DNA of 5,331 nt. Origin: Spirochaetales bacterium. GTDB lineage: Bacteria > Spirochaetota > Spirochaetia > Sphaerochaetales > Sphaerochaetaceae. A program made the translations under genes and the position numbers. Of the stretch, positions 1-5,331 are shown in pieces (the stretch's first letter is position 1; each line of letters begins with the position of its first letter). The notes beneath the pieces are model-generated. The model saw nothing but the letters and a program-made list of their open reading frames with translations, was not told where the DNA came from and did not search any database. The stretch lies in contig JAGCUM010000035.1 of the NCBI GenBank assembly GCA_017962865.1, positions 1 to 5,331 of the forward strand. The letters run 5' to 3'.

Positions 1-952
1 AGATTTCCAGAATGCTTCTGAGATAGGATGTGAACTTGTTCTTGAACTTTACCGGTTCGAGGATCTCGACTGCATCGCCACACTGGATGATGCGAAGAAT
101 GAGCTCGATGGAGTTCTCCGCATCGAAGCGGCAGATCATGGTGCCGTAGGGACGTCTTTCGGTTCTGATTTCACCGTGGGAGAGGGTGTCGAAGGAGTTC
201 AGGGCGCTCTTCTGCTTGACCAGAAGTGCCAGGGGAATGGTATCGACCACATACTCGGGATTGGCAGGGGTCTCCATCCTGCGGAAAGCCTTCAGGTTAT
301 CGGGAATGGTGTAGGTTTCGTTCAGGATGGCCACGCTTTTGATCTTGGTGATATCAAGGGTGACTATCTCGGTTGTGTGGCGCAGGCGGCCTGTTACTGT
401 AACGGGGTTGCGGCCTTTCTCGTTCTCGACGAAACCGATGAAGTAGGGGGCCAGCTCCGTTTCTTCCTCACTGTCTCTGGTCGAATGGATTATCCTGACG
501 ATTCTGCCCGATACCCAGGCATCGATGAGGACTTCCAGGATTTCGCTGCTGCGGCTGTTGCTCTGGTTTGCTTCGGCCTCGATCTGGTCTGCAATGCCCA
601 TGATGTTGGCGCTGACCTTGGGGGCATAGCCCTGCATACCCATTGCGATCTTGCGAAGTCCGGAGGCAAGGTGCGGGGTGCGGAACTCCGAGTTCTTGAG
701 AAGGATCTCGACTCCCATGTTGAGGGCAAGGCTCTCGTATACGCTGAGGGCAAGAGGCTCATCGTCAGTGCCGGGAGCAATCTTGATGAGGCTGTTGTCC
801 TCGTAGATCTCGCTGTACTGCTTCAGTTCCTCTATGTAGCGGCCGACCGTGCTTCTGTGCACGCCGATCCGTCTTGCTATATCGGATTTGCGAAGCCCTT
901 CCGGGTGGCTTCTGAGTATCAGTTCAAGTTGCGCTACGCGATCACCTTTCAT
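1..952 (-). CDS. WYL-type HTH transcriptional regulator, 3' end cut by window edge
   Basis: Probably a DNA-binding cytoplasmic regulator. I translated 317 codons on the minus strand without a stop; the gene runs off the left edge, probably within a few codons of its end. Residues 1-45 form a helix-turn-helix: GLRKSDIARRIGVHRSTVGR at about 19-38 reads as positioning helix, turn and recognition helix, as in DeoR/WYL-type regulators. Residues about 137-240 fit a WYL sensor domain, with the SGRIVRIIHS strand near 148 and an APYFIGF stretch at 168-174 matching the family's Pro-x-x-hydrophobic segment. Residues about 265-317 (CGDAVEILEP, then FTSYLRSILEI) match the C-terminal WCX extension. The Trp-Tyr-Leu signature itself is not visible; PVTVTGR occupies that place. 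The ATG is supported by AGAGG six bases upstream and because the HTH starts shortly after it. It is divergent from slyX. Family is fairly sure; target and ligand are unknown. Confidence 0.85.
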   Translation of the reverse strand, partial: MKGDRVAQLELILRSHPEGLRKSDIARRIGVHRSTVGRYIEELKQYSEIYEDNSLIKIAPGTDDEPLALSVYESLALNMGVEILLKNSEFRTPHLASGLRKIAMGMQGYAPKVSANIMGIADQIEAEANQSNSRSSEILEVLIDAWVSGRIVRIIHSTRDSEEETELAPYFIGFVENEKGRNPVTVTGRLRHTTEIVTLDITKIKSVAILNETYTIPDNLKAFRRMETPANPEYVVDTIPLALLVKQKSALNSFDTLSHGEIRTERRPYGTMICRFDAENSIELILRIIQCGDAVEILEPVKFKNKFTSYLRSILEI

Positions 953-958
953 CGAAAA

Positions 959-963
959 CCTCT
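959..963 (-). promoter_or_regulatory. Ribosome binding site of the WYL regulator
   Basis: Read on the minus strand, AGAGG lies six bases before the ATG at 952-950. It is the only purine-rich stretch near that start and decides the start choice. Confidence 0.6.
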
Positions 964-966
964 TTA

Positions 967-995
967 TTGCAACAAAAATACAACCATATTATAAT
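967..995 (+). promoter_or_regulatory. Sigma70-like promoter reading towards slyX
   Basis: TTGCAA (967-972) and a perfect TATAAT (990-995) are separated by 17 bases. This predicts a start of transcription near 1002 and an untranslated leader of about 52 bases before slyX. The -35 box overlaps the first GCAACA repeat (969-974), and the leader contains the other four. The -10 box shares its bases with the opposing promoter. This is a prediction from hexamer match and spacing only. Confidence 0.6.
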
Positions 996-1041
996 TAGGG
1001 TCAGCAACAAAATGCAACATTTTTAGCAACAGAGCGCAACA
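969..1041 (+). repeat. Array of five GCAACA direct repeats, candidate operator
   Basis: GCAACA occurs at 969-974, 1004-1009, 1014-1019, 1026-1031 and 1036-1041, all in the same orientation. Start-to-start distances are 35, 10, 12 and 10 bases, so the last four copies fall about one helical turn apart and face the same side of the DNA. One copy overlaps the slyX -35 box, one overlaps the -35 box of the regulator gene, and three or four lie just after the predicted slyX transcription start. This arrangement suits cooperative binding by a repressor or activator, most simply the adjacent WYL regulator. An RNA-level role in the slyX leader is the alternative. The repeats are seen directly; the function is inferred. 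Confidence 0.55.
988..1017 (-). promoter_or_regulatory. Sigma70-like promoter reading towards the WYL regulator
   Basis: On the minus strand TTGCAT (complement of 1012-1017) and a perfect TATAAT (complement of 988-993) are separated by 18 bases. A start near 981 would give a leader of about 30 bases. The -10 is superb but the -35 is weak (only TTG matches), so it may need an activator. The -35 lies within the GCAACA copy at 1014-1019, so whatever binds that repeat would affect this promoter. Confidence 0.45.
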
Positions 1042-1044
1042 AAC

Positions 1045-1049
1045 GGAGG
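1045..1049 (+). promoter_or_regulatory. Ribosome binding site of slyX
   Basis: GGAGG lies four bases before the ATG at 1054. It is a strong Shine-Dalgarno match with rather short spacing, and it follows the last GCAACA repeat by only three bases, so a protein on the leader RNA there could also block ribosome entry. Confidence 0.7.
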
Positions 1050-1053
1050 CATC

Positions 1054-1248
1054 ATGGACAACGACAGGCTGATCAAGATAGAGACCGACATCGTGTACCT
1101 TCAGGATACTGTCAGGGAGCTCAACGAGATTGTCTCCGCCCAGCAGGCTGCCATCACCAGGCTGGAGAAGCAGAACGAGGCCCTGAACAAGCGAATCGAG
1201 GAGCTTGATTCGGAGGCCAGACCCAACCGCCGGCCGCCGCATTATTGA
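1054..1248 (+). CDS. slyX: SlyX family coiled-coil protein
   Basis: A complete 64-residue protein, close to the usual 70 or so residues of SlyX. It begins with the family's DRLIKIETDI segment, followed by YLQDTVRELNEIVSAQQAAI and a Leu/Ile heptad pattern through residue about 50, predicting one long amphipathic coiled coil. It ends in the hallmark Pro-Pro-His-Tyr after a short Arg/Pro-rich linker. There is no signal peptide or membrane segment, so it should be cytoplasmic. The family's molecular role is not established; in E. coli slyX lies near slyD, and the name gives no function. It has a strong ribosome site, ends in TGA and lies 74 bases before dnaE on the same strand. The identification rests on the N-terminal pattern and the PPHY tail together. 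Confidence 0.9.
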   Translation: MDNDRLIKIETDIVYLQDTVRELNEIVSAQQAAITRLEKQNEALNKRIEELDSEARPNRRPPHY

Positions 1249-1322
1249 TCGGTTGATTTACAGCTTTTTAGTTCTCTCTTTCAGTTTCCAGTTCAATGTT
1301 TTTCTGTTACATTTAGATTACC
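1249..1322 (+). promoter_or_regulatory. T-rich gap before dnaE; possible weak promoter, no visible ribosome site
   Basis: The gap is rich in T and contains no hairpin that would act as a terminator, so read-through from slyX into dnaE is plausible. TTTCCA (1285-1290) and TACATT (1308-1313), 17 bases apart, each match four of six sigma70 consensus positions. If used, they would start transcription at about 1320-1323 and give a nearly leaderless dnaE message. No GGAG, AGGA or GAGG lies within 20 bases of the dnaE ATG. The promoter call is weak. Confidence 0.25.
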
Positions 1323-1613
1323 ATGACAGAATTCGTACATCTTCATAACCATACAGACTATTCGCTTCTGGATGGAGCGGCATCGATCTCAAAATACATA
1401 GCAAAGGCCAAGGAATACGGCATGAAGGCCCTTGCGATTACCGACCATGGAAACATGTTCGGCGTGTTGGATTTCTACGATGCCTGCAAGAAAGCCGGAA
1501 TCCAGCCGATTCCGGGGTGCGAGTTCTACATCAATCCGGACGGTCGTGCTTCCAAGGAGGCTGGAAACCACTATTATCACCTGATTCTGCTTGCCATGAA
1601 CGACAAGGGCTAG
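1323..1613 (+). pseudogene. N-terminal DnaE fragment if the TAG is a true stop
   Basis: If TAG terminates, this stretch would give a 96-residue piece of the PHP domain holding the HLHNH, DHGN, E67 and H86 metal-ligand positions, without C136, D203 or H205. Such a piece is unlikely to fold alone. It is listed because automatic callers will report it as a separate short PHP-domain gene; I regard it as part of dnaE. Confidence 0.4.
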
Positions 1614-4600
1614 CACAACCTCATGGAGCTCAACAGTATCGCCTATCTGGAAGGTTTCTATTACAGGCCGAGAATCGACAACGAGGTTCTGGCTCAGCAT
1701 ACCGAGGGACTTATCTGTACCTCCGCATGCCTTGCAGGCGAGATTTCCCAGAAGCTGCTCGACGGCAACGTGGAAGGGGCCTACGAGACCGCACGCTGGT
1801 ACAAGAACCTGTTCGGAGACCGATACTACATCGAGATCCAGAACCACTTCATCCCGGAAGAGGTGAGGGTACTTCCGCAACTGGTAAAGCTGGCCCGCGA
1901 CCTGGGCATCAAGCTGGTTGCCACCAACGATATCCATTACATCGATAAGGCCGATGCCAATGCGCATGATATTCTTCTTTGCATAGGAACAGGAAAGAAG
2001 AAGTCCGACGAGGACCGTCTGCGCTTCCAGACCGAAGAGTTCTATATGAAGAGCCCGGACGAGATGGCCGAGCTCTTCTCCGAATACCCGGACGCAATCT
2101 CCAACACCGTGGAGCTTGCAGAGCGCTGCAAGTGCGAAATCAAAGTCCCCGGACCTCTTCTTCCGAGCGTAGATGTCCCGAGCCAGTACAAGGATACAAA
2201 GGAATACCTGACCGCCCTTTCCTGGGACGGCCTGAGAAGGCGCTATCCGGGCTATGAGAACAACCCCGAGCAGAAGAAGGTTCTGGAAGACAGGCTCAAC
2301 TACGAGCTGAGCGTAATCCTCAAGATGGGATTCGACGGTTACTACCTGATCGTGCGTGACTATATCTACTGGGCAAAGACACACGGAATTCCGGTAGGTG
2401 CAGGCCGCGGATCCGGAGCCGGATCGATGGTCGCATACTGTGTTGATATCACGAACGTGGACCCCATCAAGTACGACCTCCTGTTCGAGCGATTCCTTAA
2501 TCCCGAAAGAGTCTCTCTTCCCGATTTCGATATCGACTTCTGCTTCGAAGGCCGCCAGAGCGTCATTGATTACGTTACGGAGCACTACGGGGTGGACAGG
2601 GTAGGACAGATTGCAACGTTCGGAACCCTGAAGGCAAAAGCCGTCGTCAAGGATGTTGCAAGAGTCCTGGATATCCCGTTCGACGAGTCCAACAGAATCA
2701 CGAAGTACATTCTCGATGTATTGCCCGACGAAGCCAAGGCAGAACATGTGACATCCCTTCTGGAATGGTCAATCCGCGTAACCCCGGAACTTCAGGAAAC
2801 GAGGGCCCGAGGTGGAGTTTATGAAGAACTTTTTGATGTCTCTCTGCGTCTGGAGAACCTCGCAAGGCATGTTTCGACCCACGCCTGCGGCGTTGTCATA
2901 GGGCAGACGGCACTGAAGAACTATGTGCCGCTCTACAAGGACCCGAAGTCCGGCGGCATCACCACGCAGTACACCATGAACAACCTCGAGCGATGCGGTC
3001 TGGTCAAGATGGACTTCCTTGGTCTGAAGACCCTGACGCTGATCCGGAACACAGAGCGCCTGATCCGAAGGAGATTGCCGGATTTCGATATCGAGAAGAT
3101 TCCTGAAAACGACAGGGAAACATTCGAGATGCTGTCCAGAGGCGACAGCATGATGGTGTTCCAGCTTGAAAGTCCGGGAATGCAGAAGAACCTCAGGCAT
3201 CTTGAACCGACCAAGTTCGAGGAACTCGACGCCATGGTCAGCCTGTACAGACCGGGCCCCATGGAATATATTCCGCGCTACATTGATTCCAAGCAGGGGA
3301 GAATCCCCATACAGTATCCCGATCCGTCGCTTGAAGACCTTCTGAAGCCCACGTACGGTGTCATAGTCTATCAGGAGCAGGTCATGCGTGTTGCCCAGAT
3401 AATTGCAGGCTTCACTCTCGGTGAAGCAGATACGCTGCGAAAGATCATGGGAAAGAAGAAGGTCAAGGAGATGCCTGCCCAGCGCGAGAAGTTCATCCAG
3501 GGCGCAATGGCTCTCGGCCACTCCCAGCAACATGCCGAGGATATATTCCACATGCTGGAACCCTTTGCCAAGTACGGTTTCAACAAGAGTCATAGCGTAT
3601 GCTACACGGTTCTGGCATACAGGACCGCATATCTCAAGTGCCACTTCAAGGCAGAGTTCCTTGCGGCCAACCTCACCAACGAAATAGGCTCCACCGATAA
3701 GTATCAGGAGTATCTGGATTATGTGAAGAATCAGGGAGTAAGTATTCTTCCTCCCAACATCAATGATTCCGATATGTACTTCAACGTCGTTGACGGAAAG
3801 CTTGTCTACGGCTTTGCGGGCATAAAGGGTCTGGGGCCGACCTCGGTACAGATGATTCTGGATGAGAGACAGGCCAACGGGCCTTACAAGGACTTTTTGG
3901 ATTTCATCAAGAGAAGCGACCAGAAGATCCTCAGCTCCAATGTGCTTGAAGGTCTGATCAACTCCGGGGCATTCGACTGCTTCGGCTACAACAGACCTAC
4001 GCTTCTTGCGAACTACGAGCTTGCAATCAAGTTCACCCAGAATGACAAGGAAGCCCAGAGCATGGGCCAGAATCTGCTGTTCGCAGGTTTCGAGGACGAG
4101 ACTACGAACTTCGAGATGAAGATCCAGCCTGATTATGAGTTCATGGAAAAGCTTGAGATAGAGAAGAACTATCTGGGATTCTATGTATCGGGCCATCCTC
4201 TTGATACTTACAGGACTCTTTGGGAGAACTGCGTGAAGCTGGACCTTTCCAAGCCCGAGAGAATCAACGAGGGAGTTCGCTATGACCTTGTCGGCATGGT
4301 GACCGAACGCAAGGAGGTGATGACCAAGACCGGAACCAAGATGGGACGTCTTGTCATCGAGGATTACAACGGCCGGCAGGAAGTGACGGTTTTCGCCAAG
4401 CAGTGGGCCATGTGTTCGGTCGGTGTTGTTGCCGGAAAGATAATTGCCGTGAGCGGACGGTACAAACTCTATAACGGCAACCTGGGATTCTCCGCGGATG
4501 TCGTTTTCGTGGATCCCAACCAGATGAAGAGCGAGAGGCCGCGCAGGGTCTATGTCGAGATCGACCACAGCATCTATGCCGGACGAGATTCCCTTCGTGA

Positions 4601-4799
4601 GATCAGAAACGTCGTGAAAAACCACCGCGGAACTGCGGATTTCGTACTCTGTGTGTACAAGGGAACGGACGAGGACGGCAAACTGGAAGGAAAGCCTCAG
4701 AAAATCGTTGCAGGCGAGAAGTTCACTGTGGATGGCTCCAGGGAACTGATGAAGGAACTGAGGGAGTGTCAGAGCGTACACGACGTGTACTGCGAGTGA
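1323..4799 (+). CDS. dnaE: DNA polymerase III alpha subunit (DnaE), interrupted by one in-frame TAG
   Basis: Replicative polymerase that extends the new strand within the polymerase III holoenzyme. The frame spans 1,158 codons plus TGA, the normal DnaE length, with one TAG at codon 97. Numbering through the TAG: the PHP domain (about 1-210) has HLHNH at 6-10, DHGN at 41-44, E67, H86, C136 and NDIHY at 202-206. The palm has GRGSGAGS at 361-368 and PDFDIDF at 400-406, giving catalytic D401 and D403, and VKMDF with D564. Fingers and thumb follow, including YRPGPM near 642. A helix-hairpin-helix region lies near 833-839 (GIKGLGP), a sliding-clamp-binding QNLLF at 916-920, an OB fold at about 987-1070, then a C-terminal tau-binding-like region. 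The start fits the family N-terminus, but no Shine-Dalgarno is visible. Translation either suppresses the TAG, or restarts at 1623, or the TAG is an error. Gene identity is certain; its intactness is not. Confidence 0.93.
1611..1613 (+). other. In-frame amber codon in dnaE at a conserved tyrosine position
   Basis: The context is GGC TAG CAC AAC CTC ATG, in the frame of both flanking segments (1323 and 1623 are 300 bases apart). Relatives read Gly-Tyr-x-Asn-Leu here, so TAG is one base from either tyrosine codon (TAC or TAT). The downstream frame keeps full homology from the very next codon, with no length change, so this is a substitution and not a frameshift or insertion. The change creates GCTAGC, containing CTAG, a tetranucleotide usually rare in bacterial genomes; I did not notice another in the window. 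Confidence 0.9.
1623..4799 (+). CDS. Possible restart product of DnaE (1,058 residues) after the TAG
   Basis: The ATG at 1623 lies nine bases after the TAG and is codon 101 of the full gene, so termination followed by reinitiation is physically possible. The product would keep the palm with D401, D403 and D564, the clamp-binding QNLLF and the OB fold, but lose the first 100 residues of the PHP domain. The only purine run upstream, AAGGG at 1605-1609, is 13 bases away, too far for a good ribosome site. In homologues this Met is internal, so it is not a natural start. I list it as the alternative reading of the downstream part of dnaE. Confidence 0.3.
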   Translation: MELNSIAYLEGFYYRPRIDNEVLAQHTEGLICTSACLAGEISQKLLDGNVEGAYETARWYKNLFGDRYYIEIQNHFIPEEVRVLPQLVKLARDLGIKLVATNDIHYIDKADANAHDILLCIGTGKKKSDEDRLRFQTEEFYMKSPDEMAELFSEYPDAISNTVELAERCKCEIKVPGPLLPSVDVPSQYKDTKEYLTALSWDGLRRRYPGYENNPEQKKVLEDRLNYELSVILKMGFDGYYLIVRDYIYWAKTHGIPVGAGRGSGAGSMVAYCVDITNVDPIKYDLLFERFLNPERVSLPDFDIDFCFEGRQSVIDYVTEHYGVDRVGQIATFGTLKAKAVVKDVARVLDIPFDESNRITKYILDVLPDEAKAEHVTSLLEWSIRVTPELQETRARGGVYEELFDVSLRLENLARHVSTHACGVVIGQTALKNYVPLYKDPKSGGITTQYTMNNLERCGLVKMDFLGLKTLTLIRNTERLIRRRLPDFDIEKIPENDRETFEMLSRGDSMMVFQLESPGMQKNLRHLEPTKFEELDAMVSLYRPGPMEYIPRYIDSKQGRIPIQYPDPSLEDLLKPTYGVIVYQEQVMRVAQIIAGFTLGEADTLRKIMGKKKVKEMPAQREKFIQGAMALGHSQQHAEDIFHMLEPFAKYGFNKSHSVCYTVLAYRTAYLKCHFKAEFLAANLTNEIGSTDKYQEYLDYVKNQGVSILPPNINDSDMYFNVVDGKLVYGFAGIKGLGPTSVQMILDERQANGPYKDFLDFIKRSDQKILSSNVLEGLINSGAFDCFGYNRPTLLANYELAIKFTQNDKEAQSMGQNLLFAGFEDETTNFEMKIQPDYEFMEKLEIEKNYLGFYVSGHPLDTYRTLWENCVKLDLSKPERINEGVRYDLVGMVTERKEVMTKTGTKMGRLVIEDYNGRQEVTVFAKQWAMCSVGVVAGKIIAVSGRYKLYNGNLGFSADVVFVDPNQMKSERPRRVYVEIDHSIYAGRDSLREIRNVVKNHRGTADFVLCVYKGTDEDGKLEGKPQKIVAGEKFTVDGSRELMKELRECQSVHDVYCE
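4068..4082 (+). other. Codons of the sliding-clamp-binding motif in DnaE
   Basis: These bases encode QNLLF, residues 916-920, which fit the Q-x-x-Leu-Phe clamp-binding pattern. They sit between the helix-hairpin-helix region and the OB fold, where DnaE proteins carry their internal beta-clamp contact. The presence of the motif indicates that the 3' two-thirds of the gene is under functional constraint. Confidence 0.65.
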
Positions 4800-4801
4800 G
4801 G
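4797..4801 (+). promoter_or_regulatory. Ribosome binding site of yggT, overlapping the dnaE stop
   Basis: TGAGG starts with the dnaE stop codon and lies five bases before the ATG at 4807. The overlap suggests translational coupling between dnaE and yggT. Confidence 0.6.
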
Positions 4802-4806
4802 ATAAT

Positions 4807-5331
4807 ATGGAATTTCTACGGGGAATCTGTTCATTTGTTTCCTGGGTGCTGGGAGTGTACTCCCTGATCATCCTTATCAGGATAATCATCTCCTGGATTC
4901 TGTTCTTCAGCAGAAGCTATGGCTGGAGGTCCGGTAACGGCGGTTACGGCTATAATCAGGAGGATCCCAATCATCCGAGCGGCCTTGCTAATGCAGATAT
5001 GGTCCTCGGCAAGATCTGCGATCCCTATCTGCACCTTTTCAGCGGGGTGAAATCGCTCCGCAGGTCTTCCTTGGACCTGACTCCGGTTCTGGCACTGGTT
5101 CTCCTGAACTTCGTCAGAAGCGTTCTCGGGATGTTCGCCGAAATCGGAAGCCTCTCTGTCTGGGTCATCCTTGCAATCCTGATCAATGCACTCTGGAGAT
5201 CGCTGTTTTCGTTCCTTCTGTTTTTGTTGATTGTACTTCTGATAGTCAGGTTCTTCCTCGGACGCAGCACATCGCCTTCGGCAAGCAACTGGATCAACAC
5301 CATAGACCCGATTCTGGACCCTTCAGTAAAC
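4807..5331 (+). CDS. yggT: YggT family integral membrane protein, 3' end cut by window edge
   Basis: 175 codons are visible without a stop. YggT proteins carry two tandem copies of a unit made of a membrane helix and a conserved DPYL...Leu-Asp-x-Ser/Thr-Pro segment. Copy one is complete: a hydrophobic helix at about 10-34, CDPYLHLF at 71-78 and LDLTPVLALVL at 89-99, which starts a second helix to about 110. Copy two begins with long hydrophobic stretches at 116-129 and 132-151 and reaches the next DPILDP at 167-172 as the window ends. Between the first helix and DPYL lies a hydrophilic loop, rich in Gly and Tyr at about 42-50. The protein should sit in the cytoplasmic membrane. The family's role is poorly known (links to osmotic tolerance and to cell-division-linked gene clusters have been proposed). 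It starts seven bases after dnaE and is probably co-transcribed. Confidence 0.85.
   Translation, partial: MEFLRGICSFVSWVLGVYSLIILIRIIISWILFFSRSYGWRSGNGGYGYNQEDPNHPSGLANADMVLGKICDPYLHLFSGVKSLRRSSLDLTPVLALVLLNFVRSVLGMFAEIGSLSVWVILAILINALWRSLFSFLLFLLIVLLIVRFFLGRSTSPSASNWINTIDPILDPSVN

Follow-up and report, generated by a model that had tools for sequence, protein, structure and literature searches.

Replicative DNA polymerases of the C family were found in all species surveyed in PMC12926913, which in its treatment of their domains describes the PHP domain as universal among them. According to the census in PMC3919608, all of ~2,000 genomes encode one or more homologs of C-family polymerases, and the Spirochaetes are listed there among the groups that carry DnaE1 plus one or two DnaE2 proteins. 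As for stop codons that might be read as amino acids, a program inferred an amino-acid meaning for 290 bacterial stop codons, all unvalidated candidates (PMC8629427); the bacterial reassignments known at that time, as summarized in the same source, all concern UGA.

The window analyzed here is a stretch of 5,331 nucleotides, which we infer to be a metagenome contig and which, judging from its relatives, probably comes from a further species of the uncultured Spirochaetales/Sphaerochaetaceae group. The open reading frame list and a domain search placed an incomplete minus-strand gene (positions 2 to 952) for a helix-turn-helix protein, a complete slyX-like gene (1054 to 1248), and, from 4807 onward, an incomplete gene for a YggT-family protein. 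Between the last two lies a plus-strand frame of 1,158 codons (1323 to 4799, from the ATG at 1323 to the TGA at 4797 to 4799) that has full-length relatives lacking inside stops and that encodes the alpha subunit of DNA polymerase III, DnaE. As the first-pass annotation had stated, this frame contains a single in-frame TAG at codon 97 (1611..1613, plus strand), its other 1,157 codons are free of stops, and both complete genes of the window, slyX-like and dnaE, end with TGA.

The TAG divides the PHP domain. Codons 1 to 96 (1323..1610, plus strand) match positions 5 to 98 of the DnaE model NF004226 and hold the first part of the domain (PF02811 positions 1 to 84; E value, 4e-33). The open remainder from the next ATG (1623..4799, plus strand; 1,058 amino acids) matches NF004226 positions 103 to 1143 with 1224 bits against a cut-off of 1002 and holds the rest of the PHP domain (PF02811 positions 90 to 164), the polymerase core, the fingers, the HHH domain, and the OB fold. 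The model is thus matched over nearly its full length, and the aspartates of PDFDIDF and MDFLGL, which we take to be the catalytic residues, are present. In this domain order and in keeping PDFDIDF, MDFLGL, and the PHP motifs, the protein is like the DnaE of uncultured Sphaerochaetaceae and Spirochaetales; it differs from them in that its frame is broken by a TAG where the relatives have a tyrosine.

The reading that we prefer is that the gene is probably intact and the codon-97 TAG a consensus error of one base: the organism would have an ordinary dnaE, and a single wrong base would have entered the contig consensus through a sequencing or assembly error, e.g., at low read depth.

Codon 97 in dnaE and its relatives

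From 230 stretches encoding a relative, we kept 80 dnaE loci. The nearest come from uncultured Spirochaetales or Sphaerochaetaceae, several of them from rumen samples, and the two closest, L001 (aligned over positions 21 to 5331) and L009 (1 to 5331), are 87.5% and 87.0% identical to the window in DNA; their DnaE proteins are each 94% identical to that analyzed here. Codon 97 could be read in 79 of the 80 loci (L063 begins too late to cover it) and specifies tyrosine in every one, as TAC in 51 and TAT in 28, which bears out the earlier expectation of a conserved tyrosine. The same residue occupies this column in 115 of the best 120 of 7,997 scored database proteins, with a gap in the remaining 5. 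It is also found at the corresponding site of 2hpi, the closest solved structure by sequence (from Thermus aquaticus), as aligned to the database relative P0001.

Counting only columns with at least 60 letters, 194 columns are invariant in the 80 relatives and a further 36 are invariant but for one sequence. At these 230 columns, the dnaE sequence departs once, at codon 97. When the same kind of test was applied to 11 close relatives, nine had no departure at invariant columns and two had one. A single departure is therefore not unusual; a stop codon is, and since this one lies inside a conserved frame, it is not chance background. The same test also holds a point against a consensus error, since, apart from codon 97, no departure at a conserved column marks the contig as generally error-prone.

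We considered whether the TAG marks a chimera or a recombination break and rejected this, because identity to L001 and L009 varies gradually across the codon without a jump. As a separate observation, this identity peaks at ~901 to 1650, again without a sharp break, and the dS values relative to L001 and L009 are 0.27 and 0.21 over codons 1 to 96 and 0.72 and 0.86 thereafter. An exact 20-base stretch around the TAG had no match in viral contigs. In the protein search, the best 120 of the 7,997 scored proteins included no near-identical protein of ~1,058 amino acids, a comparison in which clustering at 90% identity could hide a copy from the same species. Between 1200 and 1800, we found no promoter-like site and one terminator-like site, which lies on the minus strand; chance alone would give 0.5.

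An in-frame ATG at 1623, nine bases 3′ of the TAG, raises the idea of a split gene in which translation stops at the TAG and restarts to give a PHP fragment and a 1,058-amino-acid polymerase. We regard this as very unlikely. The nearest relatives, whose genes are unbroken, have the same methionine codon and nearly the same preceding sequence, so no start signal has been gained here. The sequence AAGGG at 1605 to 1609 ends 13 bases before the ATG, a spacing that exceeds that of a usual ribosome site. The cut would also fall inside the PHP fold, which PMC12926913 calls universal in C-family polymerases.

Selection on dnaE and the origin of the TAG

Downstream of the stop, dN/dS was 0.050 (L001), 0.040 (L009), 0.067 (L002), 0.071 (L005), and 0.054 (L008); upstream, it was 0.065 (L001) and 0.108 (L009) and ranged from 0.031 to 0.040 against three further relatives. 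The gene was thus kept under purifying selection at least until very recently, and such low values are as compatible with read-through at the codon or a very recent mutation as with an error. In the analyzed dnaE, 58 amino-acid changes and 227 synonymous codons are private; the corresponding numbers are 8 and 59 in L001 and 6 and 93 in L009. This excess is expected because the analyzed dnaE is the most distant of the three sequences.

Among the 10,422 possible single-base changes of dnaE, 439 (4.2%) create a stop codon and 244 of these create TAG, so that a random stop-making error in this gene would most often yield TAG. There is nothing out of the ordinary in one random base change producing a TAG. 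By way of illustration, an assumed error rate of 1 wrong base per 10,000 gives ~0.015 false stops expected in dnaE; over a very large number of contigs, some false stops are therefore bound to occur, and they will be picked out by anyone searching for oddities.

One base change would equally suffice for a real nonsense mutation, rare or very recent, either in a minority or dying lineage or as the rare allele of a strain mixture that happened to be assembled. The rest of dnaE is without decay, as expected of a very recent change, and an equally recent real change would leave the same picture as an error. We rank this explanation second and consider it improbable, though by no means negligible; with the same reserve, dnaE might then be broken in those cells only. 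Against it, dnaE is normally essential, and a lethal allele should fail to attain assembly depth. In keeping with this, PMC12926913 has C-family polymerases in each species of its survey, and we saw no full second copy that might stand in for the gene in the two nearest draft genomes.

Additional DnaE proteins in related genomes

A true pseudogene would be tolerable if another alpha subunit took its place. Nine of the 11 relative genomes have one full DnaE; the other two, G004 and G010, have a second full-length DnaE that is 57% and 52% identical, respectively, to the one analyzed, and the Spirochaetes are among the groups to which PMC3919608 ascribes an added DnaE2. However, the two nearest draft genomes each contain one full dnaE without inside stops and no second full copy; the check for a second dnaE that the first-pass annotation had proposed, as run on these two genomes, thus agrees with an error. 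The additional matches there are a shorter DnaE-like gene in G001, also present in G003, that lacks the PDFDIDF aspartates and, from its sequence, is unlikely to replace DnaE, and one weak 18-bit DnaE match in G002. With no decay in the analyzed dnaE, we give a tolerated pseudogene hardly any credence.

The second DnaE proteins are encoded by open frames of 1,186 amino acids in G004 (L160; contig C44) and 1,061 amino acids in G010 (L161; contig C23), and they carry PDFD[IV]DF and MDFLGL. They are either real paralogues or contamination of the draft genomes.

The shorter DnaE-like genes (L133:2568-3800 in G001, contig C62, and L159:2562-4286 in G003, contig C7) encode proteins derived from DnaE that have PF07733 and PF17657 as their sole domains and PWF[GS]IIC in place of PDFDIDF. 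We assembled a family of 41 cluster representatives (P0121 to P0161) from 59 hits, the other 18 being left out. Both aligned aspartates of PDFDIDF are absent in all 38 readable representatives, the remaining 3 being gapped, and the family is conserved in other stretches of its sequence. Twenty-four of the 41 proteins are 554 to 570 amino acids long, 12 are 392 to 460, and 5 are shorter. From these sequences, the family looks like a conserved pseudo-polymerase. At L133, a DUF2779 gene lies directly 3′ of the DnaE-like gene; at L159, an 85% identical relative of that gene (6042 to 6755) is separated from the DnaE-like gene by a CbbX/SpoVK-type AAA ATPase gene and one more gene. The GC content is 42% at both loci, against 52 to 53% at L001 and L002, the loci with dnaE in these two genomes; together with the shared DUF2779 neighbor, this suggests that these stretches are an acquired unit. 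Six proteins were tested with PADLOC; the ATPase alone gave a match, and a weak one (IetA and TRIP13). This family without catalytic aspartates is a more interesting by-product than the TAG itself and merits a separate look.

The use of TAG in related genomes

The TAG might instead be read as an amino acid, whether by a suppressor tRNA, under a changed code, or as pyrrolysine. The frame is open and conserved on both sides of it, neither complete gene of the window ends with TAG, and PMC8629427 offers its 290 candidate bacterial reassignments, themselves unvalidated. The tests of recoding were run on the draft genomes of 11 relatives rather than on the source organism itself, with the tRNA searches covering the two nearest (G001 and G002) and the count of stops in long open reading frames covering 400 kb of the ~1.8 Mb of G001.

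A reassigned TAG code needs release factor 1 to be lost or altered. Its gene, prfA, scored over the cut-off in 10 of the 11 relatives, with only one weaker release-factor match in G006, so that the relatives show no such pattern. Weaker, prfB-like matches are present in G001 to G010, and 7 of these 10 hold one inside stop (3 TAA, 3 TGA, and 1 TAG), which may be the prfB frameshift site or merely the gene end. PylS, of the pyrrolysine system, scored over the cut-off in none of the 11 relative genomes; weaker matches occurred in 10 of them and likewise in 12 of 14 control genomes.

In the two nearest genomes, the Rfam models marked 41 and 43 tRNA places (the 43rd in G002 being a partial match of 37.6 bits), and ARAGORN found 41 and 42 distinct tRNA genes, among which none has a CUA anticodon. 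The tRNAs of the nearest genome cover 20 amino acids. Those of the second cover 18, lacking Cys and Ile tRNAs; this genome is therefore incomplete, and an absence from it is no proof.

A reassigned code also needs TAG to be rarely or never a terminator. Of 240 nonoverlapping open reading frames of at least 250 amino acids in the 400 kb of G001, 22 end with TAG, 139 with TGA, and 79 with TAA. At the 11 nearest loci, TAG ends 5 of 58 homologue-supported open reading frames, none of the 5 being short relative to its homologues, and it terminates dnaE in 22 of the 80 relatives, though in 0 of the 11 nearest, a point that recoding could claim. TAG is thus a used, though minor, terminator in the group. 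Programmed read-through, for its part, needs a conserved stop, and codon 97 is a stop in 0 of 79 relatives.

The checks that the first-pass annotation had proposed on prfA, a CUA tRNA, and TAG as a terminator thus all came out on the side of an ordinary code, and recoding finds no support in the relatives examined. With these results, and with the bacterial reassignments known at the time of PMC8629427 all being of UGA, we hold recoding to be highly improbable. Equally far-fetched is a genuine TAG in this one species decoded by a newly arisen suppressor tRNA, with an essential polymerase reliant on stop suppression. If the TAG were real and suppressed, the organism would need amber suppression in order to replicate its DNA, a remarkable situation; we found nothing in favor of it. 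Even taken together, restart, recoding, and a tolerated pseudogene are unlikely.

What we observe is a TAG in place of a conserved tyrosine in an otherwise unbroken conserved gene, and the wrong base would be the simplest way to account for it. A consensus error is favored by the tyrosine in all 79 readable relatives, the sole departure at conserved columns, the low dN/dS, and the lack of a break in identity; by TAG being the commonest one-base stop here and by the one full dnaE in each of the two nearest genomes; and by the universality of C-family polymerases and their PHP domain, as described in PMC12926913. The earlier judgment that an error in sequencing or consensus offers the most economical explanation therefore gains support from the tests on relatives, although the error itself is deduced.

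As a genetic-code finding, the codon-97 TAG is ordinary. A lone in-frame stop that breaks an essential gene on an isolated contig can readily be taken for recoding by mistake; here, a few tests run on relatives (conservation, release factor 1, tRNAs, terminator use, and selection) disfavor recoding. In PMC8629427, isolated in-frame stops of the kind taken for recoding in genome screens are put down to pseudogenes in some yeasts and to contamination in other cases. The present case resembles them in that the stop lies in a conserved domain and no suppressor tRNA was found; it differs from them in being one codon of one gene that is otherwise under purifying selection.
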